Assembly (NCBI RefSeq): GCF_029167365.1
Contig: NZ_JARFNM010000001.1
Coordinates: forward strand, 674,001 to 738,000
Source: Amygdalobacter nucleatus
GTDB lineage: Bacteria; Bacillota; Clostridia; Saccharofermentanales; Fastidiosipilaceae
Direction of reading: 5' to 3'
Length of the DNA: 64,000 bases
Part shown: positions 23,775 through 48,742 of the stretch, piece after piece
Layout: every line of letters begins with the position of its first letter
Numbering within the stretch: the stretch's first letter is position 1
Notes under the pieces: generated by a model
Database searches by the model: none
Seen by the model: the letters and a program-made list of their open reading frames with translations, nothing else
Told to the model about the DNA's origin: nothing
Program-made: the position numbers and the translations under genes

Positions 23775-24311
23775 CTATTTTATATCCGGAGGAATCTTAG
23801 CAGATATACCTTTTCTATAAAACTTTACATTGCTTTCTTCAAAAGGAACATAATCTTTTTTCAAGCTGTCAGGATAGTTAGCTTTCCAATCCTGCAAGGC
23901 TTCTTTAGTAATTTCGTTATTTTCATATTTCTCTTTCATTTCCTGCCACTGTTCAAGCATATTACGAATTCTTAATATAGCTTCACTGCCGAAATATATA
24001 CCTGTGGTAGTGTATCCGGGATCTTCGTCATTCATAATAACCTGTCTTATATTAACTTCAATACTGTCATCAAGTTTAAATAAGAATCGCATAAGGTCAT
24101 GTTCCGTGTATGGATATGCAGGTTCTTTCAGATAATCTTTATTTACATGGAGTGCAGCGGAAATATTTTCTAAGACATCATCTTTAGGAGTACGAATATC
24201 AAGCTCATATTGTCTGATTCTGACATCATCTAAATGTGTTCTGTCTCCTAATGCCTTTTGAGTAATTCTCCGTAATTCACGGAACTTCTTAATTATTTTA
24301 CCCAAACTCAA
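23775..24311 (-). CDS. XRE-family repressor of the mobile element
   Basis: This is a DNA-binding protein with an N-terminal helix-turn-helix (about residues 5-60, ITQKALGDRTHLDDVRIRQYE). A C-terminal region of about 115 residues contains WQEMKEKYENNEITKEALQDW. The likely start is TTG at the complement of 24311: AAGGAGGTG lies 6-7 bases before it, and the GTG at 24320 is inside that ribosome site. It is divergent from the excisionase/integrase operon and flanked by AGAAACAAA repeats, so it probably represses excision and its own gene. The W-E-M / NDEITDEE-like tail motif recurs in a broken gene at 36.5 kb outside attR, indicating related elements. Confidence 0.85.
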   Translation of the reverse strand: MSLGKIIKKFRELRRITQKALGDRTHLDDVRIRQYELDIRTPKDDVLENISAALHVNKDYLKEPAYPYTEHDLMRFLFKLDDSIEVNIRQVIMNDEDPGYTTTGIYFGSEAILRIRNMLEQWQEMKEKYENNEITKEALQDWKANYPDSLKKDYVPFEESNVKFYRKGISAKIPPDIK

Positions 24312-24408
24312 TTTTAACACCTCCTTAGGAGCAAATTTGTTTCTCTTTTAATAATATAATCGAAAATAAGAAAAAATACAATAGAAAAATAAAATTTAGA
24401 AAAAAGTA

Positions 24409-24469
24409 TTGACAGAAACAAAAAAGCTACTTATAATCTAAAATAGAAACAGAAACAAATAAGTTTCTG
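24409..24469 (+). promoter_or_regulatory. Consensus promoter and operator for the excision-integration operon
   Basis: TTGACA (24409-24414), a 17-base spacer and TATAAT (24432-24437) form a perfect sigma-70-type promoter. CAGAAAC-AAATAA-GTTTCTG (24450-24469) is a perfect 7-6-7 inverted repeat just downstream. Another CAGAAAC half-site overlaps the -35 region (24413), and an inverted copy (GTTTCT) lies near 24339 in front of the repressor. These fit repressor binding sites. Confidence 0.8.
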
Positions 24470-24490
24470 AAAAGAAAGGAGGAAAGTACG

Positions 24491-24676
24491 ATGGAGAAAT
24501 TATTTCTTACTTCAAATGAAGTTGCCGATTTACTAAATATATCGCAGCAGCAGGCTTATAAAATCATTCGTGATATGAATAAGCAGCTGGCTGAACACGG
24601 CTTTCTTATCCTAAGGGGAAGAATCAATAAGAAATATTTTATGGAACAAATATACAAATCAAAGGAGGGAGAATAA
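24491..24676 (+). CDS. Excisionase (small helix-turn-helix DNA-binding protein)
   Basis: A 61-residue protein with a MerR/excisionase-like winged helix, LTSNEVADLLNISQQQAYKI. It starts 10 bases after AAAGGAGGAAAG. Its stop overlaps the integrase ATG by one base (TAATG), the usual Xis-Int coupling. In this family Xis bends the att DNA and directs integrase toward excision. Small size, HTH and position make the assignment safe at family level. Confidence 0.87.
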   Translation: MEKLFLTSNEVADLLNISQQQAYKIIRDMNKQLAEHGFLILRGRINKKYFMEQIYKSKEGE

Positions 24677-25779
24677 TGCCTGCATATAAGGACGAAAAAA
24701 ATGGAAAATGGTTCGTTTCGTTCTATTACAAGGATTGGGATGGACAAAGCAGGAAGAAGCTGAAAAGAGGCTTTGAAACAAAGAAAGAGGCAATTACTTA
24801 CGAGAGAAATTTCACGGTAAAGATGTCCGGTTCACTCAATATGCTTTTTGAGGATTACTTTGAACTCTATAAAGCCGATGTTATAGGAACTATTCGTCTT
24901 AATACATGGATGACAAAAGAACACATGATTAGGACAAAAATACTGCCGTTTTTTACAGGAATGAAAGTAAGCGAAATAAAACCTGTGGTAGTTAAGAAAT
25001 GGCACAATGTGCTTCTAAATATTGAAAATGCGGAAGGGGAAGCCTATAAGCCAACTTATCTTAAGTCAATTCACGCACAGCTAAGCTGTATGTTCAACCA
25101 TGCCGTTAAGTATTACGGACTAAGACAAAATCCTTGTAAGGTTACAGGCAGAATCGGAAAGCAAAAGAGTGATGAGGAAGTGGAATTCTGGACTAAAGAT
25201 GAATATCTGCAATTTATTGAAGCTGTTAAAGATAAGGATATTTCATTTTATGCTTTTGAAATTCTTTATTGGACAGGGATTCGTTTAGGAGAACTCAGAG
25301 CATTGACAAAAGGGGATTTTGACTTTGATAAAAAGACAATGCGAATCAGTAAATCAGCTCAGAGAATTAACGGAGAAGAAGTTATAACAGACCCGAAAAC
25401 ACCTAAAAGTAAGAGAACAATAATGCTTCCTGATTTCCTAATCAGAGAGCTACAGGATTACTTCCTTAAAATCGGGTACTTTTCAGAGGATGAGCAGATT
25501 TTCCCTAAATGCAAAACATATTTCAATAAGGAAATGGAAAGAGGAATAAAAAAGTCGGGCGTAAAGAAAATAAAACTTCATGCACTAAGACACAGTCATA
25601 TATCGCTGCTTATAGAAATGGGCTTTACACCGGTAGATATTGCAGCGAGAACAGGGCATGAAAGCATAAAGGTGTTAATGGATTATAGTCATATGTTCCC
25701 CAATAAACAGGTGGATATGGCTGATAAATTGGACAAGGAGGGCGAATACAGTGAAAGCACCGAAATTTCCAAGCTATGA
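24676..25779 (+). CDS. int: Tyrosine recombinase / integrase
   Basis: A 367-residue site-specific recombinase of the Tn916 Int type. The N-terminal about 50 residues form the arm-binding AP2-like domain (WFVSFYYKDWDGQSRKKLKRG), followed by a SAM-like core-binding domain. The catalytic domain has the first Arg in YWTGIRLGELRAL (near residue 200), the HxxR box in LHALRHSHISLL (near 301), the following His in TGHESI, and the nucleophilic Tyr in MDYSHM (near 336). All key residues are present, so it should be active. Given the flanking repeats, it inserts into the guaA 3' end. Confidence 0.95.
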   Translation: MPAYKDEKNGKWFVSFYYKDWDGQSRKKLKRGFETKKEAITYERNFTVKMSGSLNMLFEDYFELYKADVIGTIRLNTWMTKEHMIRTKILPFFTGMKVSEIKPVVVKKWHNVLLNIENAEGEAYKPTYLKSIHAQLSCMFNHAVKYYGLRQNPCKVTGRIGKQKSDEEVEFWTKDEYLQFIEAVKDKDISFYAFEILYWTGIRLGELRALTKGDFDFDKKTMRISKSAQRINGEEVITDPKTPKSKRTIMLPDFLIRELQDYFLKIGYFSEDEQIFPKCKTYFNKEMERGIKKSGVKKIKLHALRHSHISLLIEMGFTPVDIAARTGHESIKVLMDYSHMFPNKQVDMADKLDKEGEYSESTEISKL

Positions 25780-26200
25780 TGAGGCGGTTAATCGTAAAAA
25801 GAAAAAGTGCCAAAATTTGATGAGTAAAGAAGAATGGCAAACGTTGGAAGAGGAAAGAAAACAAAAGGAACGAGATAAAGGCAAGCGATTTGCTAATCAC
25901 AGGAAAAAGGATGTAACCATAGCATTCAGAACAAATCGAAAAGACAGAGAGCTTATTTTCAATAAAATTGCGATGTCCGGGCTGAGTAGACAGGATTATA
26001 TGACTAATGCAATTCTTAATGCTCCTATAAAGGTGTTTGCTACAAGAAATGTCATAGACAGTTGTAAAAGTGAGTTACAGGAAATTTTATCGGAACTGAA
26101 ACGAGTGAAAGAATATGGAGAAGTGGATGATAATTATAGGCATGAACTTAGGATGATTGTTGAAATAATAGAAGCGGCAATGCAAGAAAAAAGCCTTTAG
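25751..26200 (+). CDS. Probable mobilization accessory protein (ribbon-helix-helix-like)
   Basis: A 149-residue, very basic protein starting at GTG 25751 (AAGGAGGG upstream, overlapping the integrase end by 29 bases). A charged N-terminal stretch is followed by VTIAFRTNRKDRELIFNKIAMSGLSRQDYM, which looks like a ribbon-helix-helix strand and helix, and then a helical tail. This resembles relaxosome-type accessory proteins commonly found next to integrases in mobilizable elements. It is co-transcribed with xis and int. A role in DNA binding at the origin or oriT is inferred; no specific homologue is recognised. Confidence 0.55.
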   Translation: MKAPKFPSYDEAVNRKKKKCQNLMSKEEWQTLEEERKQKERDKGKRFANHRKKDVTIAFRTNRKDRELIFNKIAMSGLSRQDYMTNAILNAPIKVFATRNVIDSCKSELQEILSELKRVKEYGEVDDNYRHELRMIVEIIEAAMQEKSL

Positions 26201-26276
26201 CCATACGACTAAAGGCAAGATGAAAGTACAACTTGGTATTTCATCCCTGACAAGATTATTTTATCAGGTTGTACTT
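26193..26276. other. Structured region between the accessory gene and the primase gene
   Basis: Two hairpins. GCCTTTAG/CTAAAGGC (26193-26216) overlaps the stop codon and is followed by a T run only on the minus strand. AAGTACAAC (26224-26232) pairs with GTTGTACTT (26268-26276), enclosing CCTGA/TCAGG. They could form an attenuator, an antisense terminator or part of a replication signal. Confidence 0.5.
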
Positions 26277-26306
26277 CTATCAGCAATAAAAAGATAGGAG
26301 GTTACG

Positions 26307-27239
26307 ATGATAAACAGAGAGAAATATATTGAAAATATTCCGCAAGACTTAAAAGACCGTAGTCAATGGTTATGGTTTAAAAGGGTAGTAAATGTTGATA
26401 GGCACGGAATGAAAAAAGTTATAAAGATACCTGTAAGCCCGATAACATTGAAATCGAATTTTTGGAATCAAAAAGAAAATTGGGCAGATTTTGAAACGGC
26501 GGTTAATAATTTGAAAAGTAGTGGCTGTGACGGATTGTCTTTTGTGTTGAGTAAAGACGATCCGTTTGTGTGTATCGACTTGGACGATGTGGACAATAAA
26601 AAACTTGAGATGTTTATAAATGACTTTAATGATACTTATATCGAAGTATCACAATCCGGAAGAGGGTTACACATTTTTGCAAAGGGGAAAATGGAAAAGA
26701 ACTTTAATAACCAGCTTGAGAAAGTGGAGATGTATCAAGAAAATAGATGTATTGCTATGACAGGTAATATCTACAAATTTAATGATTTTGTTGCGAACAA
26801 AGTTCTCTTGAAACAAAAGGAGTTGGACAAATATTACAAGTTATTTTTCCCAAAAAGAAGTGTCAGAGAAGTTATTAGAAAATATCAGGAAGCTGCTGAA
26901 TGTGTTCCTGACAGTGATACAGTTATAGAAACCATGTGCAGGTATAACGCAAAGGCAAAAGCGTTATTTGAAGGCTCATATACAAGCGGAGACGCCAGTA
27001 AAGATGACTTTTCATTGCTTCTTTTTCTAAACAGTTTTACTCACGGAAATGCAGAAATGATGAAAGAAATATTTTTGAAATCTGCACTTAATCGAATGGG
27101 AGATAGAAGTAAAAGAAGTACGGAAAAAGGATACTTGAAATATTTAGAGGACAGCATTTCAAAAGCGATACAGGGAGGAAATAAGAGATATTGGGATTAT
27201 AACTATCACAGAAGTAAAGGAGGATACTCGCTTGAATAA
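26307..27239 (+). CDS. Primase-polymerase-like replication protein
   Basis: This 310-residue protein has the archaeo-eukaryotic-type primase pattern found in phages and satellite elements: the metal-binding D-x-D in VCIDLDDVD (near residue 92), SQSGRGLHIFAKG (near 117), and CIAMTGNIYKF. N-terminal features (DRSQWLWFKRV, PISP-like segment) match the NrS-1/bifunctional primase family. The C-terminal 100 residues are a helical extension. The next gene, a VapE-type helicase, overlaps by 8 bases. Such primase-helicase pairs let an excised element replicate by itself, as in SaPI-type satellites. Confidence 0.85.
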   Translation: MINREKYIENIPQDLKDRSQWLWFKRVVNVDRHGMKKVIKIPVSPITLKSNFWNQKENWADFETAVNNLKSSGCDGLSFVLSKDDPFVCIDLDDVDNKKLEMFINDFNDTYIEVSQSGRGLHIFAKGKMEKNFNNQLEKVEMYQENRCIAMTGNIYKFNDFVANKVLLKQKELDKYYKLFFPKRSVREVIRKYQEAAECVPDSDTVIETMCRYNAKAKALFEGSYTSGDASKDDFSLLLFLNSFTHGNAEMMKEIFLKSALNRMGDRSKRSTEKGYLKYLEDSISKAIQGGNKRYWDYNYHRSKGGYSLE

Positions 27240-28623
27240 TTGGCTTAAATTTGATGATTTGGAGCTAAGCGATTATTTAGATCGTGAACTTGAAATCACA
27301 GATAAGGGACAAGTCAAAAGTACAACAACCAATCTCATAACTGTGTTAGTGAATCCCCGTTTTTGTAAAGAACAAGATATTTTATCAGGATATATTTTCT
27401 TTGACACTTGCAGCAGAACAATTCGTTTTTATGGAAAGTTAAAAGGAGAAAGATGTACTGATTTAGAAATACGAAAATGGAATGACCATATGACAAATAT
27501 CCTCGGAGTTGAAATCGAAAGAGAATTTGGAATTAAATATTCGAAAAATCGTATGGAAGATGCCGTTCTTTTTGTTGCTCATAAGAGGTCAATCAATTTA
27601 CCGGCAATGTATATGGAATCGCTACCCTATGACGGGCAAGAATATATTTCAAAATTACTACCCAAATATCTTGGAGCAGAGGATACAAAATTAAATTCTT
27701 GGATTATGAAACATATCTTGGTCGGTATGGTAAAAAGAGCATTTAATCCCGGATGTAAGTTTGATGAATTGATGGTTCTTACAGGGGTGCAGGGCGTTGG
27801 GAAAACTTCATTTATTGAAAAACTGGCACTATTTCCTGAATGGTATTGCTCATTAAACAATATAAAAGGGAAAGATGCCGTCAGTAATTTGGTAGGTAAG
27901 ATTGTTGTTGAGCTTGAAGAATTTGTTGCTCTTAGAAATGCGAAAAGTGCTGATGAAGCAAAACTTTTTATTTCGGCAAGAACAAGCACGGTAAGACTTC
28001 CATATGAACGCTTTTCAACAGATGTTAAACGAAGCTGTGTTTTGATTGCGACAACAAACGACGCTACATTCTTGGGAGACTTCTCAGGAGAAAGAAGATA
28101 CTTGCCTGTAAAAGTGAACAGTGAAAAGATACAAATTCCGTTGATGTATGATCCGGAAAAATTTCCTGTATTGGAAACTATCACAAGAAAAAAACATGAA
28201 AAAATGCTGAAAAATGATTTTGAAGGAGCTATTGCAGAAGCGGTACATCTTTACAAAAACAAGCTGCATGATTTCTATTTGCCGAAGGAACTAAGAAGTG
28301 ATTTGGATTATGTCATTCAAACACATAAGAGCGAAAACAGACATGTGCAAAACTTCTTGGACTTCATGGAATGGAAGGTAACGAAGTCTGATACTCCTAA
28401 TATATTATGTTCCGCAGAATTTACAAGCAAGTATCCTGAAACAAATGAAAAGGTGTTTTCGGAACTGATGGAAAATGAGATGGCTGACGAATGGATTTTA
28501 GAGCCTAATGTAAAAAGCAAGAAAGTAAGGATTGACGGAATCGTTAGAGTAAGCAAGAAGTTCTATAAGAGAAATGTAACCGCAGACTTTATGGAAGTAA
28601 AAGATATGGAAATACCATTTTAA
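27232..28623 (+). CDS. VapE/D5-type superfamily 3 helicase
   Basis: A 463-residue ATPase with Walker A GVQGVGKTSF (near residue 187), Walker B KIVVELEEF, sensor region CVLIATTNDATFLGD and the following FSGERRYLPV, the standard VapE/virulence-associated E order. It starts at TTG 27232, with AGGAGG upstream, overlapping the primase. The C-terminal 100 residues look like a small DNA-binding module (FTSKYPETNEKVFSELMENE). It is expected to unwind the element origin and work with the primase. The strong 20-bp hairpin just after the gene is a candidate target. Confidence 0.88.
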   Translation: MNNWLKFDDLELSDYLDRELEITDKGQVKSTTTNLITVLVNPRFCKEQDILSGYIFFDTCSRTIRFYGKLKGERCTDLEIRKWNDHMTNILGVEIEREFGIKYSKNRMEDAVLFVAHKRSINLPAMYMESLPYDGQEYISKLLPKYLGAEDTKLNSWIMKHILVGMVKRAFNPGCKFDELMVLTGVQGVGKTSFIEKLALFPEWYCSLNNIKGKDAVSNLVGKIVVELEEFVALRNAKSADEAKLFISARTSTVRLPYERFSTDVKRSCVLIATTNDATFLGDFSGERRYLPVKVNSEKIQIPLMYDPEKFPVLETITRKKHEKMLKNDFEGAIAEAVHLYKNKLHDFYLPKELRSDLDYVIQTHKSENRHVQNFLDFMEWKVTKSDTPNILCSAEFTSKYPETNEKVFSELMENEMADEWILEPNVKSKKVRIDGIVRVSKKFYKRNVTADFMEVKDMEIPF

Positions 28624-28640
28624 GAGTTTTGAAAAAGTCT

Positions 28641-28690
28641 GCTACCGCTACTTTGCTACCTGGCTTAAAAGGTAGCGAGGTAGTGGTAGC
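28641..28690. repeat. 20-bp hairpin made of GCTACC repeats, candidate replication origin
   Basis: The left arm (28641-28660) contains GCTACC, GCTACT and GCTACC. The right arm (28671-28690) contains GGTAGC, GGTAGT and GGTAGC. The two arms pair along 20 positions (two G-U pairs) around a 10-base loop. Repeated hexamers in opposite orientation next to a helicase gene resemble iteron origins. No T run follows at once, so it is not a standard terminator. Confidence 0.6.
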
Positions 28691-28792
28691 GACAACTTTT
28701 AAACTTTTGTAGAAAAGAAAAAAACATGATTTTTTAGATAAATTGATTATAGCGGTTCATATGTCTTTTCTGTGATAGTCATAAGAGCTTAT

Positions 28793-28844
28793 TAGTAAAA
28801 GCACTATTTTCAGTGAGATAGTAAAAGCACTATTTTCAGTGAGA
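28793..28844 (+). repeat. Perfect tandem repeat, 26 bp x 2
   Basis: Each unit runs from TAGTAAAAGC to TTTTCAGTGAGA and contains a small CACT-N5-AGTG inverted repeat. The first unit spans 28793-28818 and the second 28819-28844, with no mismatches. Candidate relaxosome or replication-protein binding sites. Confidence 0.85.
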
Positions 28845-28856
28845 TAGCAAGCATAT

Positions 28857-28931
28857 ACTTTTTGACCACAGTCCAAAAAGTAGGCTTGTAAGCTGCTAAT
28901 TCACCTTAATCAATTTTAGGGAGTACCCTAA
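28857..28931. repeat. Two inverted repeats upstream of mobC
   Basis: ACTTTTTG (28857-28864) and CAAAAAGT (28874-28881) form an 8-9-8 inverted repeat. TTAGGG-AGTA-CCCTAA (28916-28931) is a 6-4-6 one. A nick site is probably near one of them, but I cannot point to it. Confidence 0.65.
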
Positions 28932-28959
28932 GACCCCAATGAGAAAGGAGAGATGAAAA

Positions 28960-29340
28960 ATGCCAAAGATAGTTAATCGTAAAAACAACTGTACCGTTCA
29001 CTTTATGGTGAACGAAGAAGATATGAAAGAATTAAATAGAAGATTTGCATTGACCAATTTTAAGAGCAAGAGAGAATTTTACAGAGATACTATTTTCAAG
29101 AACAAAATTATCAGCATTGATATTTTTGGAGACTTCAGAAAAGAACTGAGGGAATTATCTTCTCTTATAAGTCGTAACTCAGTGAACCTGAATCAGATTG
29201 CAAAGGCGGTAAACAGTACAGGAGTTATTTACAAAGATGATATTGAAAGTATCAAGGAAGCTTTGCAGGGGGAACTTCTTTTTCTATCAGAGTTTAGAGA
29301 AAAGGTTTCCGACTATATTATCAATGAGGTTGTAGGATAA
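28960..29340 (+). CDS. MobC-type relaxosome protein
   Basis: A 126-residue DNA-binding accessory of the relaxase. The N-terminus is a basic ribbon-helix-helix region (NNCTVHFMVNEEDMKELNRR). The middle carries the MobC hallmark SRNSVNLNQIAKAVNSTG (about residues 72-89), and a helical tail follows. The ribosome site GAAAGGAGAG precedes ATG 28960. The stop overlaps the relaxase start by one base (TAATG), so both are made in step. In this family MobC melts DNA at oriT to help the relaxase nick it. Confidence 0.9.
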   Translation: MPKIVNRKNNCTVHFMVNEEDMKELNRRFALTNFKSKREFYRDTIFKNKIISIDIFGDFRKELRELSSLISRNSVNLNQIAKAVNSTGVIYKDDIESIKEALQGELLFLSEFREKVSDYIINEVVG

Positions 29341-30800
29341 TGGCTGTTACAAAGATACATCCGATTAAAACAACTCTTAAAAAGGCAATAGACTATATCT
29401 GTAACGGAGATAAGACAGACGATGAAATCTATGTTACAACACACCTTTGCAGCAGAGAAAATGCTCATAAAGAGTTCGAACTTACCAAGAAACAATTTAG
29501 CTCAAGAACCAAGACCTTAGCACATCATTTGATTCAATCTTTTGTTCCGGAAGAAGTGAGTTTTGAAGAAGCACATCAAGTTGGAATTGAACTCTGTGAA
29601 AAGATTTTAGGCGGGAAATATGAGTATGTATTGGCTACTCATATTGACAAAGACCATATTCATAATCACATCATTTTTAATTCCATAGATGTTGATGAAG
29701 GTAAAGTTTATCATTCCTACTATGGTTCCTATATGAACATCAGAAATCAAAGCGATAGACTGTGCAAGGAACATAATTTATCGGTAATAGATGTTGAAAC
29801 GCAAAAAGAAATCAATGAAATTAAGCGAAGAAAATTTGTGAATTGGTACGACTGGAATGAAGATAAAAAGGGCAGTAGCTATAAATCAAGACTTCAATTT
29901 GATATTGATAGAATCATAAAGCAGTCAATCAACTGGCAGGACTTTTTATCTAAAATGGAAAGCTATGGTTATGAAATCAAGTTTGGGAAGCACATAGCTT
30001 TTAGAAGTAAAAATCAGCAAAGATTTACCAGAGCAAAGATCATTGGAAATAACTACACTGAAGAACAGATTAAGGACAGAATCCTAAATAAAGAGAAAGA
30101 AATTGGCAATATCATTGATATTAAGAACAACGAAAAAGCAAAGTTGAACAAAGGGTATGAACACTGGGCAACGAAACATAATCTTAAAACTGCTGCTTCC
30201 ACACTTGTTGAAATTAGGAATAAAGGTTTTAACTCAATGGAAGAATTGGAGCGTGGCATCAGCCGAATCTCCATTGAAAAGAATGAGTTGAAACGAGAAT
30301 TTGATAAGCTGTCATTGGAACAAAAGAGGATAAAGGCAGTAGTAAAGCATATTCAAGTCTGTATTAACAAGCGAGAACATTATGAGGGTTATCGCAAAAA
30401 TCCGAATGACAAAATTTATTTGATGATGAATCGAAAAGATGTGGAAGCTTATCAGAAATCCTATGAGGAAATAGATATTTTCCTTAAACAATTTCCTCAT
30501 TTGAGACATATGGTGTTGGGAGAGTTAAAAGCAAAATCAGGTAAAATTCTTTTCAGAAAATTAAATGAGCGTTCCAAAGAATTACAGATTAAACAAGAGG
30601 ATATTGCCGAGAAACATAATGCGTTATCAGTAAAATATGAGGAGTTGGAACATCTGAAAAATAACATGAATGATTATCTTGGCAGAGATAAAACTGAGAA
30701 GAAAAAGGAATCAGTTATCGACGTCATAAAGAAGCATAAGGCTAAGGAAAAAGAAAAGCCAAAAGAAAAGAAAGAAGCAAACAAAGAAGCTGATAGGTAA
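29340..30800 (+). CDS. Relaxase, MOBP/VirD2-like
   Basis: This 486-residue nicking enzyme cuts one strand at oriT, stays attached through a tyrosine and leads the strand into a recipient. The metal-binding triad is in THIDKDHIHNHIIFN (about residues 100-114). The likely catalytic tyrosine lies in AIDYICNGDK (near residue 18). The N-terminal about 240 residues are the relaxase domain; the rest is a long charged helical/coiled-coil tail ending in a Lys/Glu-rich run. No coupling protein or secretion genes are present, so it depends on a helper conjugative element. Confidence 0.93.
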   Translation: MAVTKIHPIKTTLKKAIDYICNGDKTDDEIYVTTHLCSRENAHKEFELTKKQFSSRTKTLAHHLIQSFVPEEVSFEEAHQVGIELCEKILGGKYEYVLATHIDKDHIHNHIIFNSIDVDEGKVYHSYYGSYMNIRNQSDRLCKEHNLSVIDVETQKEINEIKRRKFVNWYDWNEDKKGSSYKSRLQFDIDRIIKQSINWQDFLSKMESYGYEIKFGKHIAFRSKNQQRFTRAKIIGNNYTEEQIKDRILNKEKEIGNIIDIKNNEKAKLNKGYEHWATKHNLKTAASTLVEIRNKGFNSMEELERGISRISIEKNELKREFDKLSLEQKRIKAVVKHIQVCINKREHYEGYRKNPNDKIYLMMNRKDVEAYQKSYEEIDIFLKQFPHLRHMVLGELKAKSGKILFRKLNERSKELQIKQEDIAEKHNALSVKYEELEHLKNNMNDYLGRDKTEKKKESVIDVIKKHKAKEKEKPKEKKEANKEADR

Positions 30801-30807
30801 ATTTATG

Positions 30808-30840
30808 GTCGGTGTGGTCTTAGGGCTGCACCGGCTTTTT
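30808..30840 (+). terminator. Terminator of the mobilization operon
   Basis: GTCGGTGTGGTC pairs with GGCTGCACCGGC along 12 positions (several G-U pairs), loop TTAG, followed by TTTTT. Confidence 0.85.
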
Positions 30841-30870
30841 ACTATTTATAGTGGTAAAATCTAAATAGAA

Positions 30871-30946
30871 ATTCGAATATTTTCGAAATAGAGTTGACAT
30901 ACATTCTGTAAAAAAGTATAATCTATTTAGAAATATATCGAAATAG
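30871..30946 (+). promoter_or_regulatory. Consensus promoter and repeated operator of the sdpR-like operon
   Basis: TTGACA (30894-30899), a 17-base spacer and TATAAT (30917-30922). A TCGAAATAGA element occurs before the -35 box (about 30882-30892) and again after the -10 box, where CTATTT (30923-30928) and AAATAG (30941-30946) form an inverted repeat. The placement suits autorepression by the ArsR-type protein encoded next. Confidence 0.8.
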
Positions 30947-30985
30947 AATTTTGAAGTTTAAAATAGATTAGACGAGGTAATTTGA

Positions 30986-31261
30986 GTGGGATTCCCGAAT
31001 ACATTTAAAGCATTAGCAGATCCTGTAAGGCGTGATATTTTACTTTCCTTGAAGCAAAAATCACTTACAGCAGGAGAAATTGCTGAAAAATATGATTTAT
31101 CTAATTCAACCATTTCTTATCATTTATCCTTGCTAAAAAAAGCAGAATTAGTAACGGAGAGGAAGTATAAGAATTTTATATACTATGACATAAATATATC
31201 CGTATTTGAGGAATTGATAATTTGGTTATCACAGTTTCAAGGAGTGGAAAATGAAGAATAA
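30986..31261 (+). CDS. ArsR/SdpR-type autorepressor
   Basis: A 91-residue winged-helix protein starting at GTG 30986. NTFKALADPVRRDILLSLKQ and LSNSTISYHLSLLKKAELV are the recognition features of the ArsR/SdpR class. It lacks the usual metal-binding cysteines, as in SdpR, which is controlled by being held at the membrane by SdpI. It overlaps the following SdpI-like gene by 11 bases. It is expected to repress its own operon until a toxic peptide engages the SdpI partner, by analogy with the Bacillus SdpRI system. Confidence 0.88.
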   Translation: MGFPNTFKALADPVRRDILLSLKQKSLTAGEIAEKYDLSNSTISYHLSLLKKAELVTERKYKNFIYYDINISVFEELIIWLSQFQGVENEE

Positions 31262-44895: not shown

Positions 44896-45906
44896 ATGAA
44901 AGCTATTGTTGCTACTAAAGATCGTAAAGCTGCAGTTGTAGAGAAAGAGTTTCGTCCATTAAGAGCTGGTGAAGCTTTGCTAGATATGCTTTGTTGTGGT
45001 GTTTGCCATACAGACTTACATGTGAAGAATGCTGATTTTGGTGATAAGTCTGGTGTTGTGCTCGGACATGAAGGCATTGGTGTAGTAAAAGAGGTTACTC
45101 CTGGCGTAACTTCTCTCAAAGTTGGTGATCGTGCAAGTGTAGCATGGTTCTTTGAAGGATGTGATTATTGTGAATATTGCACATCTGGTCGCGAAACACT
45201 TTGCCGTTCAGTTCTGAATGCTGGCTATACAGCTGATGGTGGTATGGCTCAAGAGTGTATCGTAACAGCTGATTATGCTGTCAAAGTACCTGAAGGATTA
45301 GATTCAGCAGCTGCTTCTTCAATTACATGTGCTGGCGTTACAACATACAAGTCTTTGAAAGAATCAGGTGTTCGTCCAGGTGAGTGGATGCTCTTAGCTG
45401 GCTTAGGCGGATTAGGCAACTTGGCTTTATAATATGCTAATAATGTCTTTGGCATGAAAGTTATTGCAATGGATATTAATGATGGTCAGTTGGAGTTTGC
45501 TCGCGAGTGCGGTGCTGATATTTGTGTCAACCCAAATAAGGAAGATGTTGCCAAGTTAGCTATGGATAAAGTCGGTGTTTGCCATGGTGCAGTTGTTACA
45601 GCTGTTAATAAGGCAGCTTTCAACACAGCAGTTAATGCTGTACGGGCTGGTGGTTGCGTAGTTGCTGTTGGCTTGCCAGTTGAAACAATGTATCTCTCTA
45701 TCCCACGTTTGGTTTTGGATGGTATCCGTGTCGTTGGTTCCTTAGTTGGTACACGTCAAGACTTGGCTGAAGCTTTCCAATTTGGTGCTGAATGTAAGGT
45801 TGTTCCTAAGTGCCAGATGCGTCAAATGAAAGACATTAATGATATCTTTTATGAGGTGGCAGCTGGTAAGATTCGTGGCCGTATGGTTATCGATTTGAAG
45901 CACTAA
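44896..45906 (+). pseudogene. Zinc alcohol dehydrogenase (AdhP type), interrupted by an in-frame TAA
   Basis: If the stop at codon 179 (45430-45432) is read through, the product has 336 residues with full AdhP features. These are the catalytic zinc site Cys37 (CCGVCHTD), His58-Glu59 (GHEG) and a later Cys; the structural zinc Cys at 89, 92, 95 and 103; and the NAD-binding [10 protein letters not shown] before the stop and VIAMDIND after it. The frame continues without any base lost. The stop sits where relatives have Gln (LGNLALQYA), so one base change, CAA to TAA, explains it. As written, only half of the enzyme would be made. The second half could restart at ATG 45454 but lacks a ribosome site. 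Confidence 0.85.
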
Positions 45907-45956: not shown

Positions 45957-46140
45957 CATAGGCAAGGAAGTTACTTAAGCTTGGCTTGATTTAGATAAAA
46001 TGGCCTAGCTATTTACAATTGGCGTAATTTTAGCGGGTGCTTAAAATTCCTAATTACTTATCAGTTGACCGCTTAAAATCACAGACTTAACTTCTGAACT
46101 GTACTATATTAAATCTAGAGACATTGTAGGTAGGTAAAAA

Positions 46141-47811
46141 ATGAATTTCGAGAAACTATATACTTTATTAGACAAAAAGTCTGACGAAATGATTAAAAAC
46201 CGTCGCTATTTGCATGAGCATCCAGAAGTATCTTTTCAGGAAGAAAAGACGAGCGAATTTATTCTCAAACATTATGCCGATAAAGATGTAAAAGTTGAAT
46301 ATCCTTTAGGCACACATGGTATAAAAGTTACAATCGATTCAGGTAAACCTGGCAAAACAGTGGCGCTTAGAGCTGACTTTGACGCTTTGCCAATTCAAGA
46401 AGAAACAGATTTACCTTTTGCATCTAAAAATGGTGCGATGCATGCTTGCGGCCATGATGGTCATACAGCCTATTTGTTAGCTTTAGCTGATTGTTTAATT
46501 GAATTAAAATCTGAATTCACAGGTAAGGTAGTTATCTTGCACCAACATGCTGAGGAGGCTCCTCCAGGAGGTGCGAAAGAGATGATTGAAGCTGGTGCTT
46601 TAGAGGGCGTAGATGCTGTATTTGGTTGCCATTTCATGAATATGATGCAACCAGGCAAAGCCTATTACCACGCTGGCCCAACCCAACACGCTCGGTCCAA
46701 ATTTATCATCAAAGTTCAAGGCCAAGGCGGCCATGCATCCATGCCACAAGATGCTAACGATGCAATTTTGATTGCTAGCCAAGTTGTTATAAATTTACAA
46801 TCGATTGTATCAAGGCGCATCAGTTCTATGGAGTCAGCAGTATTAACAATCGGCTCATTTGATGGTAAGGGTCAAGCTAATATTATAAAAGATTGTGTCA
46901 CATTAGAGGGTGATGTGCGTTGCCTAACTGATGAAACAAATCATTTCATTGAGAGGGAAATAAGACGTATTTGTGTTGGAATAGCACAGGCTTATGCTTG
47001 TGAGATAAAAGTCGATTACACAATTGATTATCCTGTGTTGTATAATGATACAAAATTGACTGAATTTGTGTACAAAACTCTGCAAAAAGCTAAGATTCCT
47101 GAGCTGAAAGGTGTAGAGGATAGTGGTATTCAAAATCCGTCAGAGGATTTTGCTTATTATGCACAAGTTAAACCGGCATGCTTCTTTTATATAGGAGCTA
47201 AACCTGATGCAGAAGCGGTTTATCCGCATCATCATCCAAAATTTGAGATTAATGAGGAGGCTTTAATGTTAGCTGCTAAATCTGTTGGAACTATTGCTTT
47301 GCAATATTTGAATGATCCTTGTATTTGCGATGAAAAGTGTCAATGTGAACCTGCTTGTGATTGCGGTGAAAGCTGTGATTGCAGAGAGAACTGTGATTGT
47401 GGCGAAAACTGTGATTGCGGTGAAAGCTGTGATTGCAGAGAGAACTGTGATTGTGGCGAAAACTGTGATTGCGGTGAAAGCTGTGATTGCAGAGAGAACT
47501 GTGATTGTGGCGAAAACTGTGATTGCCGAGAGAGCTGTGATTGTGGCGAAAATTGTGATTGCGGTGAAAGCTGTGATTGCAGAGAGAACTGTGATTGTGG
47601 CGAAAACTGTGATTGCGGCGAAAACTGTGATTGCGGTGAAAGCTGTGATTGCAGAGAGAACTGTGATTGTGGCGAAAACTGTGATTGCAGAGAGAACTGT
47701 GATTGTGGCGAAAACTGTGATTGCAGAGAGAACTGTGATTGTGGCGAGAATTGTGATAGTGAAGCAGAAAGTAACTGTGAAAAAGACTGTAATTGCACAA
47801 AAGATTGTTAG
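46141..47811 (+). CDS. M20-family amidohydrolase with a long Cys-rich repeat tail
   Basis: Residues 1-392 form a complete M20 peptidase/aminoacylase of the HipO/YkuR class. The metal site is Cys103, His105 (HACGHDGH), Glu138-Glu139 (HAEEAPPGG), His164 (GCHF) and a His in HHHPKF near 364. The family normally ends near residue 390-395. Here 163 further residues (394-556) follow, made of about 24 hexapeptides, mostly CDC(G/R)E(N/S), and a final Cys-rich end (SNCEKDCNCTKDC). I count 53 Cys in this tail, spaced as CxC pairs every six residues. Asp and Glu are also frequent, so the tail is very acidic. It has no signal peptide, so it should be in the cytoplasm. Metal binding is inferred. No such fusion is known to me. 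Confidence 0.9.
   Translation: MNFEKLYTLLDKKSDEMIKNRRYLHEHPEVSFQEEKTSEFILKHYADKDVKVEYPLGTHGIKVTIDSGKPGKTVALRADFDALPIQEETDLPFASKNGAMHACGHDGHTAYLLALADCLIELKSEFTGKVVILHQHAEEAPPGGAKEMIEAGALEGVDAVFGCHFMNMMQPGKAYYHAGPTQHARSKFIIKVQGQGGHASMPQDANDAILIASQVVINLQSIVSRRISSMESAVLTIGSFDGKGQANIIKDCVTLEGDVRCLTDETNHFIEREIRRICVGIAQAYACEIKVDYTIDYPVLYNDTKLTEFVYKTLQKAKIPELKGVEDSGIQNPSEDFAYYAQVKPACFFYIGAKPDAEAVYPHHHPKFEINEEALMLAAKSVGTIALQYLNDPCICDEKCQCEPACDCGESCDCRENCDCGENCDCGESCDCRENCDCGENCDCGESCDCRENCDCGENCDCRESCDCGENCDCGESCDCRENCDCGENCDCGENCDCGESCDCRENCDCGENCDCRENCDCGENCDCRENCDCGENCDSEAESNCEKDCNCTKDC
47356..47751 (+). repeat. 18-bp tandem repeat, 22 near-perfect units, coding
   Basis: Each unit is TGTGATTGC/T-(GGT/GGC/AGA/CGA)-GAA/GAG-AAC/AGC. 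Units are grouped in a higher order of three (GES, REN, GEN; 54 bp), seen three times in a row at 47356-47517 and then again in altered form. High identity at silent positions suggests recent expansion by slippage or recombination. The other frames and the opposite strand also stay open here only because the unit length is a multiple of three. Confidence 0.95.
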
Positions 47812-47876: not shown

Positions 47877-47899
47877 ATAGCTAGAAAGTGAGGACTTTT

Positions 47900-48742
47900 A
47901 TGCGCATAATGAAGAAAATTCCTGGTGGAACGTTACTTATATCTATGTTGATAGCAGCTATAATCCATACATTTTGCCCTGATCTATTCAAAATTGGTGG
48001 TATGACAGAGGCGTTGTTTAGTGGTAGTTCCATGAATTTTATCCTAGGTGCAGCTGTCTTTGTTTCTGGTTGTAGCCTGAATTCATCCAGCTTACCTAAA
48101 GTAATTAAACGTTACGGAACACTCTTAGTTTTTAGAACCATTTTAATTATTTTAGTTTGCTTAGCTTTCTATTATGCTTTTGGCGTTCCAGGTATAGCAG
48201 GTATCAGCACTTTAGCCTTTGTTTGCGCTATAACTTCCGTCAATCCAACGCTATTTTTGGCTTTAGTTTCAGATTGCGGTGATGAAATTGACCAGTGAGC
48301 TTTTAGCTTTATTTCGCTATTCTCAACCCAAGTTATTCCAATGTTTATCTATGGCTTAATGTCACCAACAGAAATAGACTTCATGCCAATTATCTCAACT
48401 TTGATACCACTTATTAGTGGTATTGTGATTGGCAACTTAGATAAAGAACTTGGCAAATTTTTGGCCACATGTATGCCTTTCTTAATTGTTGTTTTAGGTT
48501 GGGCAGTTGGCCTAGGCATTAATTTGTTGGAGACCGTGCGAGCTGGCTTAGATGGTATTTTAATGACAGCTATTTACTATGTCTTTACGTTTGTACCGAT
48601 GCTGTTTGTCGACAAATTAGTTGTTAAACATGGCGGTCTATCAGCTTCAGCTATCGTTACTTTAGGTGTTGTTTTGACAGCTGTACTTACGCCAAACTTA
48701 GTGAAACATTTTTCGACAAATACTAAAAATGGAGGCCAATGA
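47900..48742 (+). pseudogene. KdgT-like 2-keto-3-deoxygluconate permease, interrupted by an in-frame TGA
   Basis: Starting at ATG 47900 (GAGG upstream), the frame runs to DCGDEIDQ, stops at TGA 48296-48298, and goes on in the same frame as AFSFISLFSTQVIPMF to 48742, 280 residues with the stop read through. KdgT features are clear: KKIPGGTLLISMLIAAIIHTF at the start, ITSVNPTLFLAL, and GIVIGNLDKELGKFLA. Relatives have a Gly at the stop position (GAF or GAY), so one base, GGA to TGA, would explain it. About ten membrane segments if intact. Its last bases overlap the antiporter gene (ATGA). Confidence 0.8.

Follow-up and report, generated by a model that had tools for sequence, protein, structure and literature searches.

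Long metallothioneins built by tandem repetition have been described in eukaryotes. Specifically, TmMT from Tremella is a tandem-built protein whose repeat includes CxC-x3-C; it has about 57 Cys by its published make-up and, when made in E. coli, binds 17–21 Zn, 23–25 Cd or about 40 Cu (PMC4755600). Likewise, OdiMT2 from Oikopleura is 31% Cys and consists of tandem repeats whose number differs between populations (PMC8283569). Bacterial metallothioneins are regarded as rare, and one of them, SmtA, has a zinc-finger fold (PMC7558416). A different arrangement is a metal-binding extension at the C-terminus of a cytosolic protein, as found in SlyD and in the GroES protein HspA of H. pylori; the Cys/His tail of SlyD binds Ni, lowering the enzyme activity of SlyD (PMC10653786).

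Here we examine a gene of Amygdalobacter in which an M20D amidohydrolase/peptidase is fused in frame to a 165-amino-acid tail containing 53 Cys (32%), within a 64-kb stretch of DNA (the window). Comparing this tail with the systems above reveals both likenesses and differences. It shares tandem amplification with TmMT, with Cryptococcus CnMT1/2 and with OdiMT2, the CxC-x3-C motif with TmMT and a Cys content of about 31–32% with OdiMT2. However, those long tandem-repeat metallothioneins are free-standing eukaryotic proteins with proven metal binding, whereas this is a fused bacterial tail that, unlike them, keeps a strict 6-residue register and is rich in Asp and Glu. SmtA and MymT are likewise Cys-rich, with a presumed cytosolic metal-binding role, but they are small, free-standing proteins with no sequence match to the tail; indeed, characterised bacterial metallothioneins are small, in contrast to a 53-thiol chain on a metalloenzyme. 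The tails of SlyD and HspA parallel it as C-terminal extensions of cytosolic proteins, although theirs combine Cys with much His (no more than 50 residues in SlyD) and sit on an FKBP-fold PPIase or on GroES, while the present tail is joined to an M20 enzyme and is devoid of His.

The M20D enzyme and its cysteine-rich extension

The open reading frame (46141–47811, + strand) runs from ATG to TAG and encodes 556 amino acids; its features and surroundings are collected in Table 1. An earlier note, made from the sequence alone, had described a complete M20 amidohydrolase continuing into a 53-cysteine repeat tail, and both parts of that description are borne out. Pfam places Peptidase_M20 at residues 75–385 (E 1.5e-38) and M20_dimer at 188–278, and TIGR01891 (amidohydrolase, NCBIfam) is matched over the whole of its profile (1–366 of 366; E 2.4e-96), with 323 bits against a curated cut-off of 153.75, as is required of an M20D member (MEROPS M20D / TIGR01891). 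Among solved structures the nearest is 4ewt of Staphylococcus aureus (E 2.6e-142 in a sequence search); Foldseek aligns 390 columns of it with the AlphaFold model, in which pLDDT is mostly above 85 throughout this domain, at 1.5 A with an identity of 56%. In an alignment of 26 sequences C103, H105, E139 and H164 are invariant and H364 is nearly so; from knowledge of the family we take all five to be ligands of the dimetal site, and Cys103 had already been placed among the metal-site residues in the earlier note. The S. aureus protein (4ewt), B. subtilis YxeP (1ysj), the Corynebacterium acylglutamine aminoacylase (6slf) and a plant IAA-amino acid hydrolase (1xmb) have the catalytic domain, fold and presumed metal ligands in common with this protein, but all four lack the Cys-rich tail. 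A Cys ligand is in keeping with the family, as the dizinc site of CsAga is bridged by Cys (PMC11511702). Eight further Cys lie within the M20 domain, outside the tail. The protein is predicted to be an intact cytosolic M20D dimetal peptidase/amidohydrolase, the catalytic part of which is an ordinary member of its family.

Table 1. Features of the M20D gene, its tail and the flanking genes (positions in the window)
Feature	Position	Strand	Basis
Zinc-type alcohol dehydrogenase, one in-frame TAA at 45430-45432	44896-45906	+	Both halves match Pfam ADH domains
Possible ribosome-binding site TAGGTAGG, upstream of ATG	46127..46134	+	Read from sequence
M20D amidohydrolase/peptidase domain, residues 1-391	46141..47313	+	Pfam, NCBIfam, 26-sequence alignment, PDB 4ewt, AlphaFold model, Foldseek
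Cys-rich acidic tail, residues 392-556; 53 Cys, 27 Asp, 27 Glu	47314..47808	+	Translation, counts; absent from homologues
Diverged units 1-2, CICDEK CQCEPA, Cys register kept	47320..47355	+	Unit table, substitution analysis
Core tandem array, 22 units of 18 bp, CDC(G/R)E(N/S), 54-bp higher order	47356..47751	+	TRF, unit table
Degenerate end CDSEAE SNCEKD CNCTKD C, register kept, two Cys-to-Ser changes	47752..47808	+	Unit table, substitution analysis
Terminator-like hairpin AAGCACTC...GGGTGCTT then GCTTTTT, 3' of stop codon	47839..47875	+	Read from sequence
KdgT-like permease, one in-frame TGA at 48296-48298	47888-48742	+	

The composition of the tail sets it apart from the sampled open reading frames of the same genome, in which Cys averages 1.4% and reaches at most 5.0%. 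From Cys394 onward there are 27 consecutive, ungapped CxC-x3 hexapeptides and a final Cys, comprising two diverged, 22 near-identical and three degenerate units; the repeats of CDC(G/R)E(N/S) type with a Cys-rich end that had been reported earlier are therefore present, and the count of about 24 is refined to 27 units, 22 of them of the core type. The chain is acidic (calculated pI 4.05, charge about -44 at pH 7), and the earlier picture of a thiol-dense polymer with metallothionein-like density and a regular pattern of its own holds. At the DNA level, TRF reports an 18-bp unit repeated 22.3 times over 47356–47757, with higher orders of 54 and 72 bp, and such an array cannot have arisen by chance. 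Other reading frames of the array are open as well, so that openness by itself is no proof, and the tail as read contains no in-frame ATG.

The tail, which includes a single Ile among its 165 residues, lacks the hydrophobic residues from which a globular fold might be expected, and AlphaFold assigns it a pLDDT of about 27–52, mostly below 50. These features bear on one structural alternative, namely that the tail forms a left-handed beta-helix of hexapeptide repeats of the LpxD/GlmU type, in which 18 residues make up one coil, matching the 54-bp unit. Consistent with this, there is a weak NCBIfam similarity to LpxD hexapeptide repeats, and the AlphaFold model contains short strands about every 18 residues; however, the similarity lies far below the cut-off (31.7 bits versus 207) and fits a common periodicity, the model is of low confidence over the tail and aliphatic residues are missing from the positions that would fill the core. 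We consider such a helix very improbable.

Searches against known metallothionein families place the tail outside all of them. None of the metallothionein families of Pfam or NCBIfam is matched at cut-off, and the tail alone matches none even at E 10. The cadmium metallothionein 6qk5 is weakly similar in a phmmer search of the PDB (E 0.07), 9e5c is matched there by composition, and the matches to LED_rpt (Pfam), LpxD, Scl and MSCRAMM are periodic or compositional and below their cut-offs. The high Cys content and CxC motifs expected of a metallothionein are present (53/165, in a 27-unit CxC-x3 register), but since the tail matches no curated family model and is fused to a 391-residue domain instead of being a small free-standing protein, we call it metallothionein-like by anatomy and do not class it as a metallothionein.

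Amplification of the repeat and its cysteine register

The core array contains only seven distinct 18-mers, and a 54-bp triplet encoding GES-REN-GEN recurs within it, which points to recent amplification; with most of its units copied so recently, the core does not amount to 22 independent observations. The chief competing account of the tail starts from here: slippage or recombination would have lengthened an 18-bp in-frame tandem repeat at the gene's 3' end, where a free terminus tolerates such growth, and any metal binding would be incidental. Near-identical units with a 54-bp higher order are what such growth would leave behind. Likewise, no homologue carries the tail. The approximately 100 homologous M20 reading frames from named genomes and order-level relatives all end 0–20 residues past the aligned domain, the closest of them being 61% identical (genomes G021 and G055). 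In its own genome, the only one of the genus among those searched, there is a single copy of the tail, and it is absent from 57 of 57 relatives' genomes; an exact pattern of the CDC-x-E-(N/S/K)-CDC type was found in 0 of 397 other genomes of the phylum, and a tblastn search of plasmid and phage records with 55 tail residues, with the BLAST low-complexity filter on, gave no match.

The surroundings of the gene also bear on this account. On one side of the M20 gene lies the gene of a zinc-type alcohol dehydrogenase and on the other that of a KdgT-like permease; both are interrupted by one nonsense codon (the two stop codons differ), so genes do decay at this locus. With a terminator-like hairpin after its stop codon, the M20 gene seems to be a stand-alone unit; this hairpin is absent from the output of the hairpin scan, which had a loop limit of 8. 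The vicinity of the M20 gene showed no recognisable metal regulator, metal transporter or riboswitch and no RNA families. The genome spans 1,614,203 bp, with a sampled G+C of 38–39%. A second M20 gene about 29 kb downstream (G000:C1:749142-749782) appears broken, with split matches and a TAG inside, and in the window, at about 23775–31000, translations read by eye point to an integrated element with a repressor-like gene, an integrase and replication-type and relaxase-like reading frames.

Against neutral growth, the cysteine register appears to have been kept where the sequence has drifted. In the diverged end units Cys positions are retained in 8 of 10 cases, versus 2 of 20 for other positions (Fisher P=3e-4; P=3.6e-4 at the nucleotide level). 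Furthermore, a minimum spanning tree of the core units yields 6.5 synonymous to 3.5 nonsynonymous changes where a synonymous share of 16–29% is expected, an excess with P between 0.002 and 0.04 depending on transition bias. These statistics rest on few events and gene conversion may homogenise the copies; taken together, they constitute moderate evidence that the Cys register is maintained. It is also unlikely that a chain of 53 thiols would be chemically inert. Neutral expansion is, we think, an unlikely explanation.

Short modules on unrelated proteins

It is informative to examine whether the register occurs outside this protein. A generic scan for (CxCx3)n in 391 genomes of the class picked out one true analogue, a trigger factor (genome G584) ending CDCGDDCECGDDCDCGDDCNCNK; among the matches listed, nearly all others were low-complexity DNA such as TGTTGGTGT, and those of one family member (G006) look like another frame or strand. 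When 30 trigger factors of the G584 family were read to their ends, two more species proved to have such tails (G875, G850), a few had Lys/Thr-rich tails instead and most had none. A tighter scan for CxCG(D/E)xCxC was positive in 7 of the 391 class genomes, the genome of this gene included. Readable cases came from 4 of the 390 others: the same trigger factor, a GrpE whose long N-terminus is rich in CxC (G753), a DUF2703 protein with an acidic CxC-x3 segment (G643) and another protein, Cys-rich and of unknown kind (G486). The remaining two positives (G706, G586) look like out-of-frame matches. Applied to 398 genomes of the phylum, the tight scan gave no convincing further case, both of the other matches (G107, G159) being apparently out of frame. 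The generic scan of viral contigs was as noisy as that of the class genomes; these contigs also encode tiny phage proteins of about 27–28 amino acids, of the type MVKCEKCGRDCDCGDNCECTNCECKKEE, which are possibly phage-borne metal-binding peptides.

Acidic termini of the CxCGDDCxC type are thus seen on chaperones and other cytosolic proteins, in small-genome and other Clostridia. The trigger factor, GrpE and DUF2703 termini resemble the present tail in having an acidic CxC-x3 register at a flexible protein end, but they comprise few units compared with 27 here and belong to other partner proteins. Since trigger factor, GrpE and others carry a short form of the module, the tail is probably separable from the enzyme. 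The module is rare yet recurrent, at the flexible ends of unrelated proteins, and these short sequences fit homology or convergence alike. A literature search found no account of an M20 tail of this kind or of CxC tails on trigger factor or GrpE, and we know of no published description of short acidic CxCGDDCxC tails. The earlier remark that no M20 protein with such a tail had been described agrees with the roughly 100 homologues, although the acidic module itself is shared, in short form, with other proteins.

These occurrences cut both ways. The GrpE and trigger factor tails lie at freely varying sites, and related trigger factors carry Lys/Thr-rich tails instead, which fits neutral growth; on the other hand, the same unusual module on several unrelated proteins speaks against it. 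In our view, the Cys register kept in diverged units, combined with the recurrence of the module on other proteins, favours a metal-binding role over pure repeat noise.

A proposed tethered metal-thiolate chain

We propose, with a probability of roughly 60%, that the tail has grown by tandem amplification into a metallothionein-like metal-thiolate chain, tethered to the enzyme, whose role is to buffer or sequester soft metal. A short acidic CxC-x3 module, of the kind seen on trigger factor and GrpE in other anaerobic Clostridia, would have become the C-terminus of the M20D enzyme, and tandem duplication of 18- and 54-bp units would have expanded it until it held 53 thiols. The empty chain would be disordered in an anaerobe's reducing cytosol and would fold around clusters of soft metal ions, Zn(II) and perhaps Cu(I) or Cd(II), and the metal would then be buffered or sequestered by the chain, with the enzyme as carrier. 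By analogy with the similar Cys count of TmMT, the capacity of the tail may be about 15–20 divalent ions or 35–40 Cu(I). The niche of Amygdalobacter is the human vagina, where the host may restrict Zn and Mn. Weighed against this reading are the lack of a family match, the lack of metal genes nearby, the recent amplification of the core, the roughly 100 tailless M20 homologues and the rarity of the module; the metal binding, its capacity and the buffering role are what we infer.

Two other uses of the thiols are less likely than neutral expansion, as is the beta-helix discussed above. In the first, disulfides or metal bridges would serve to sense oxidation or would link the enzyme oligomers together in large assemblies. 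The thiol density of the tail would permit this, and several M20D enzymes are dimers or tetramers (PMC11511702), hence their tails would be multivalent. However, a charge of about -44 per tail opposes self-association, no signal peptide is apparent and the register is CxC-x3, with no CxxC pattern of the redox type. The family members compared are cytosolic, and in the cytosol of an anaerobe thiols stay reduced, which further makes such a role quite improbable.

In the second, the tail would be the Cys-rich substrate of a radical-SAM enzyme that forms thioethers, akin to a ranthipeptide repeat. The genome does encode a SCIFF maturase (TIGR03974, E 1.9e-158), and C-x3-E spacings occur in the tail; but the maturase adjoins its own six-Cys SCIFF peptide about 100 kb from the M20 gene, the CxxxCxxC motif is absent from all long open frames of the window, and the tail, which is fused to an enzyme, has no leader peptide and matches no precursor model. 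This leaves modification of the tail a remote prospect. The SCIFF pair itself (G000:C1, about 616,710–618,456) consists of a 48-amino-acid precursor (TIGR03973) beside a maturase with 25 Cys and a Cys-rich C-terminus.

Returning to the metal-thiolate chain, the destination of its metal invites more caution. It is speculative that the chain delivers metal to the site of the enzyme it is fused to, or gates that enzyme's activity, and because about 100 M20 homologues do without a tail, buffering or sequestration is the likelier role. A bolder proposal, which we hold to be doubtful, is that anaerobic Clostridia equip ordinary cytosolic proteins (trigger factor, GrpE, an M20 peptidase) with metallothionein modules at their flexible ends, an arrangement as yet undescribed, and that the one on this peptidase has become a large reservoir that loads or gates the enzyme's dimetal site. 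A 53-thiol chain on a metalloenzyme, and the short module that chaperones of related anaerobes bear, suggest that a terminal tag on housekeeping proteins may serve for metal buffering, and tags of this kind would be missed by family searches. With the protein described here one could ask directly whether an enzyme is able to carry a metal store of its own and draw on it.
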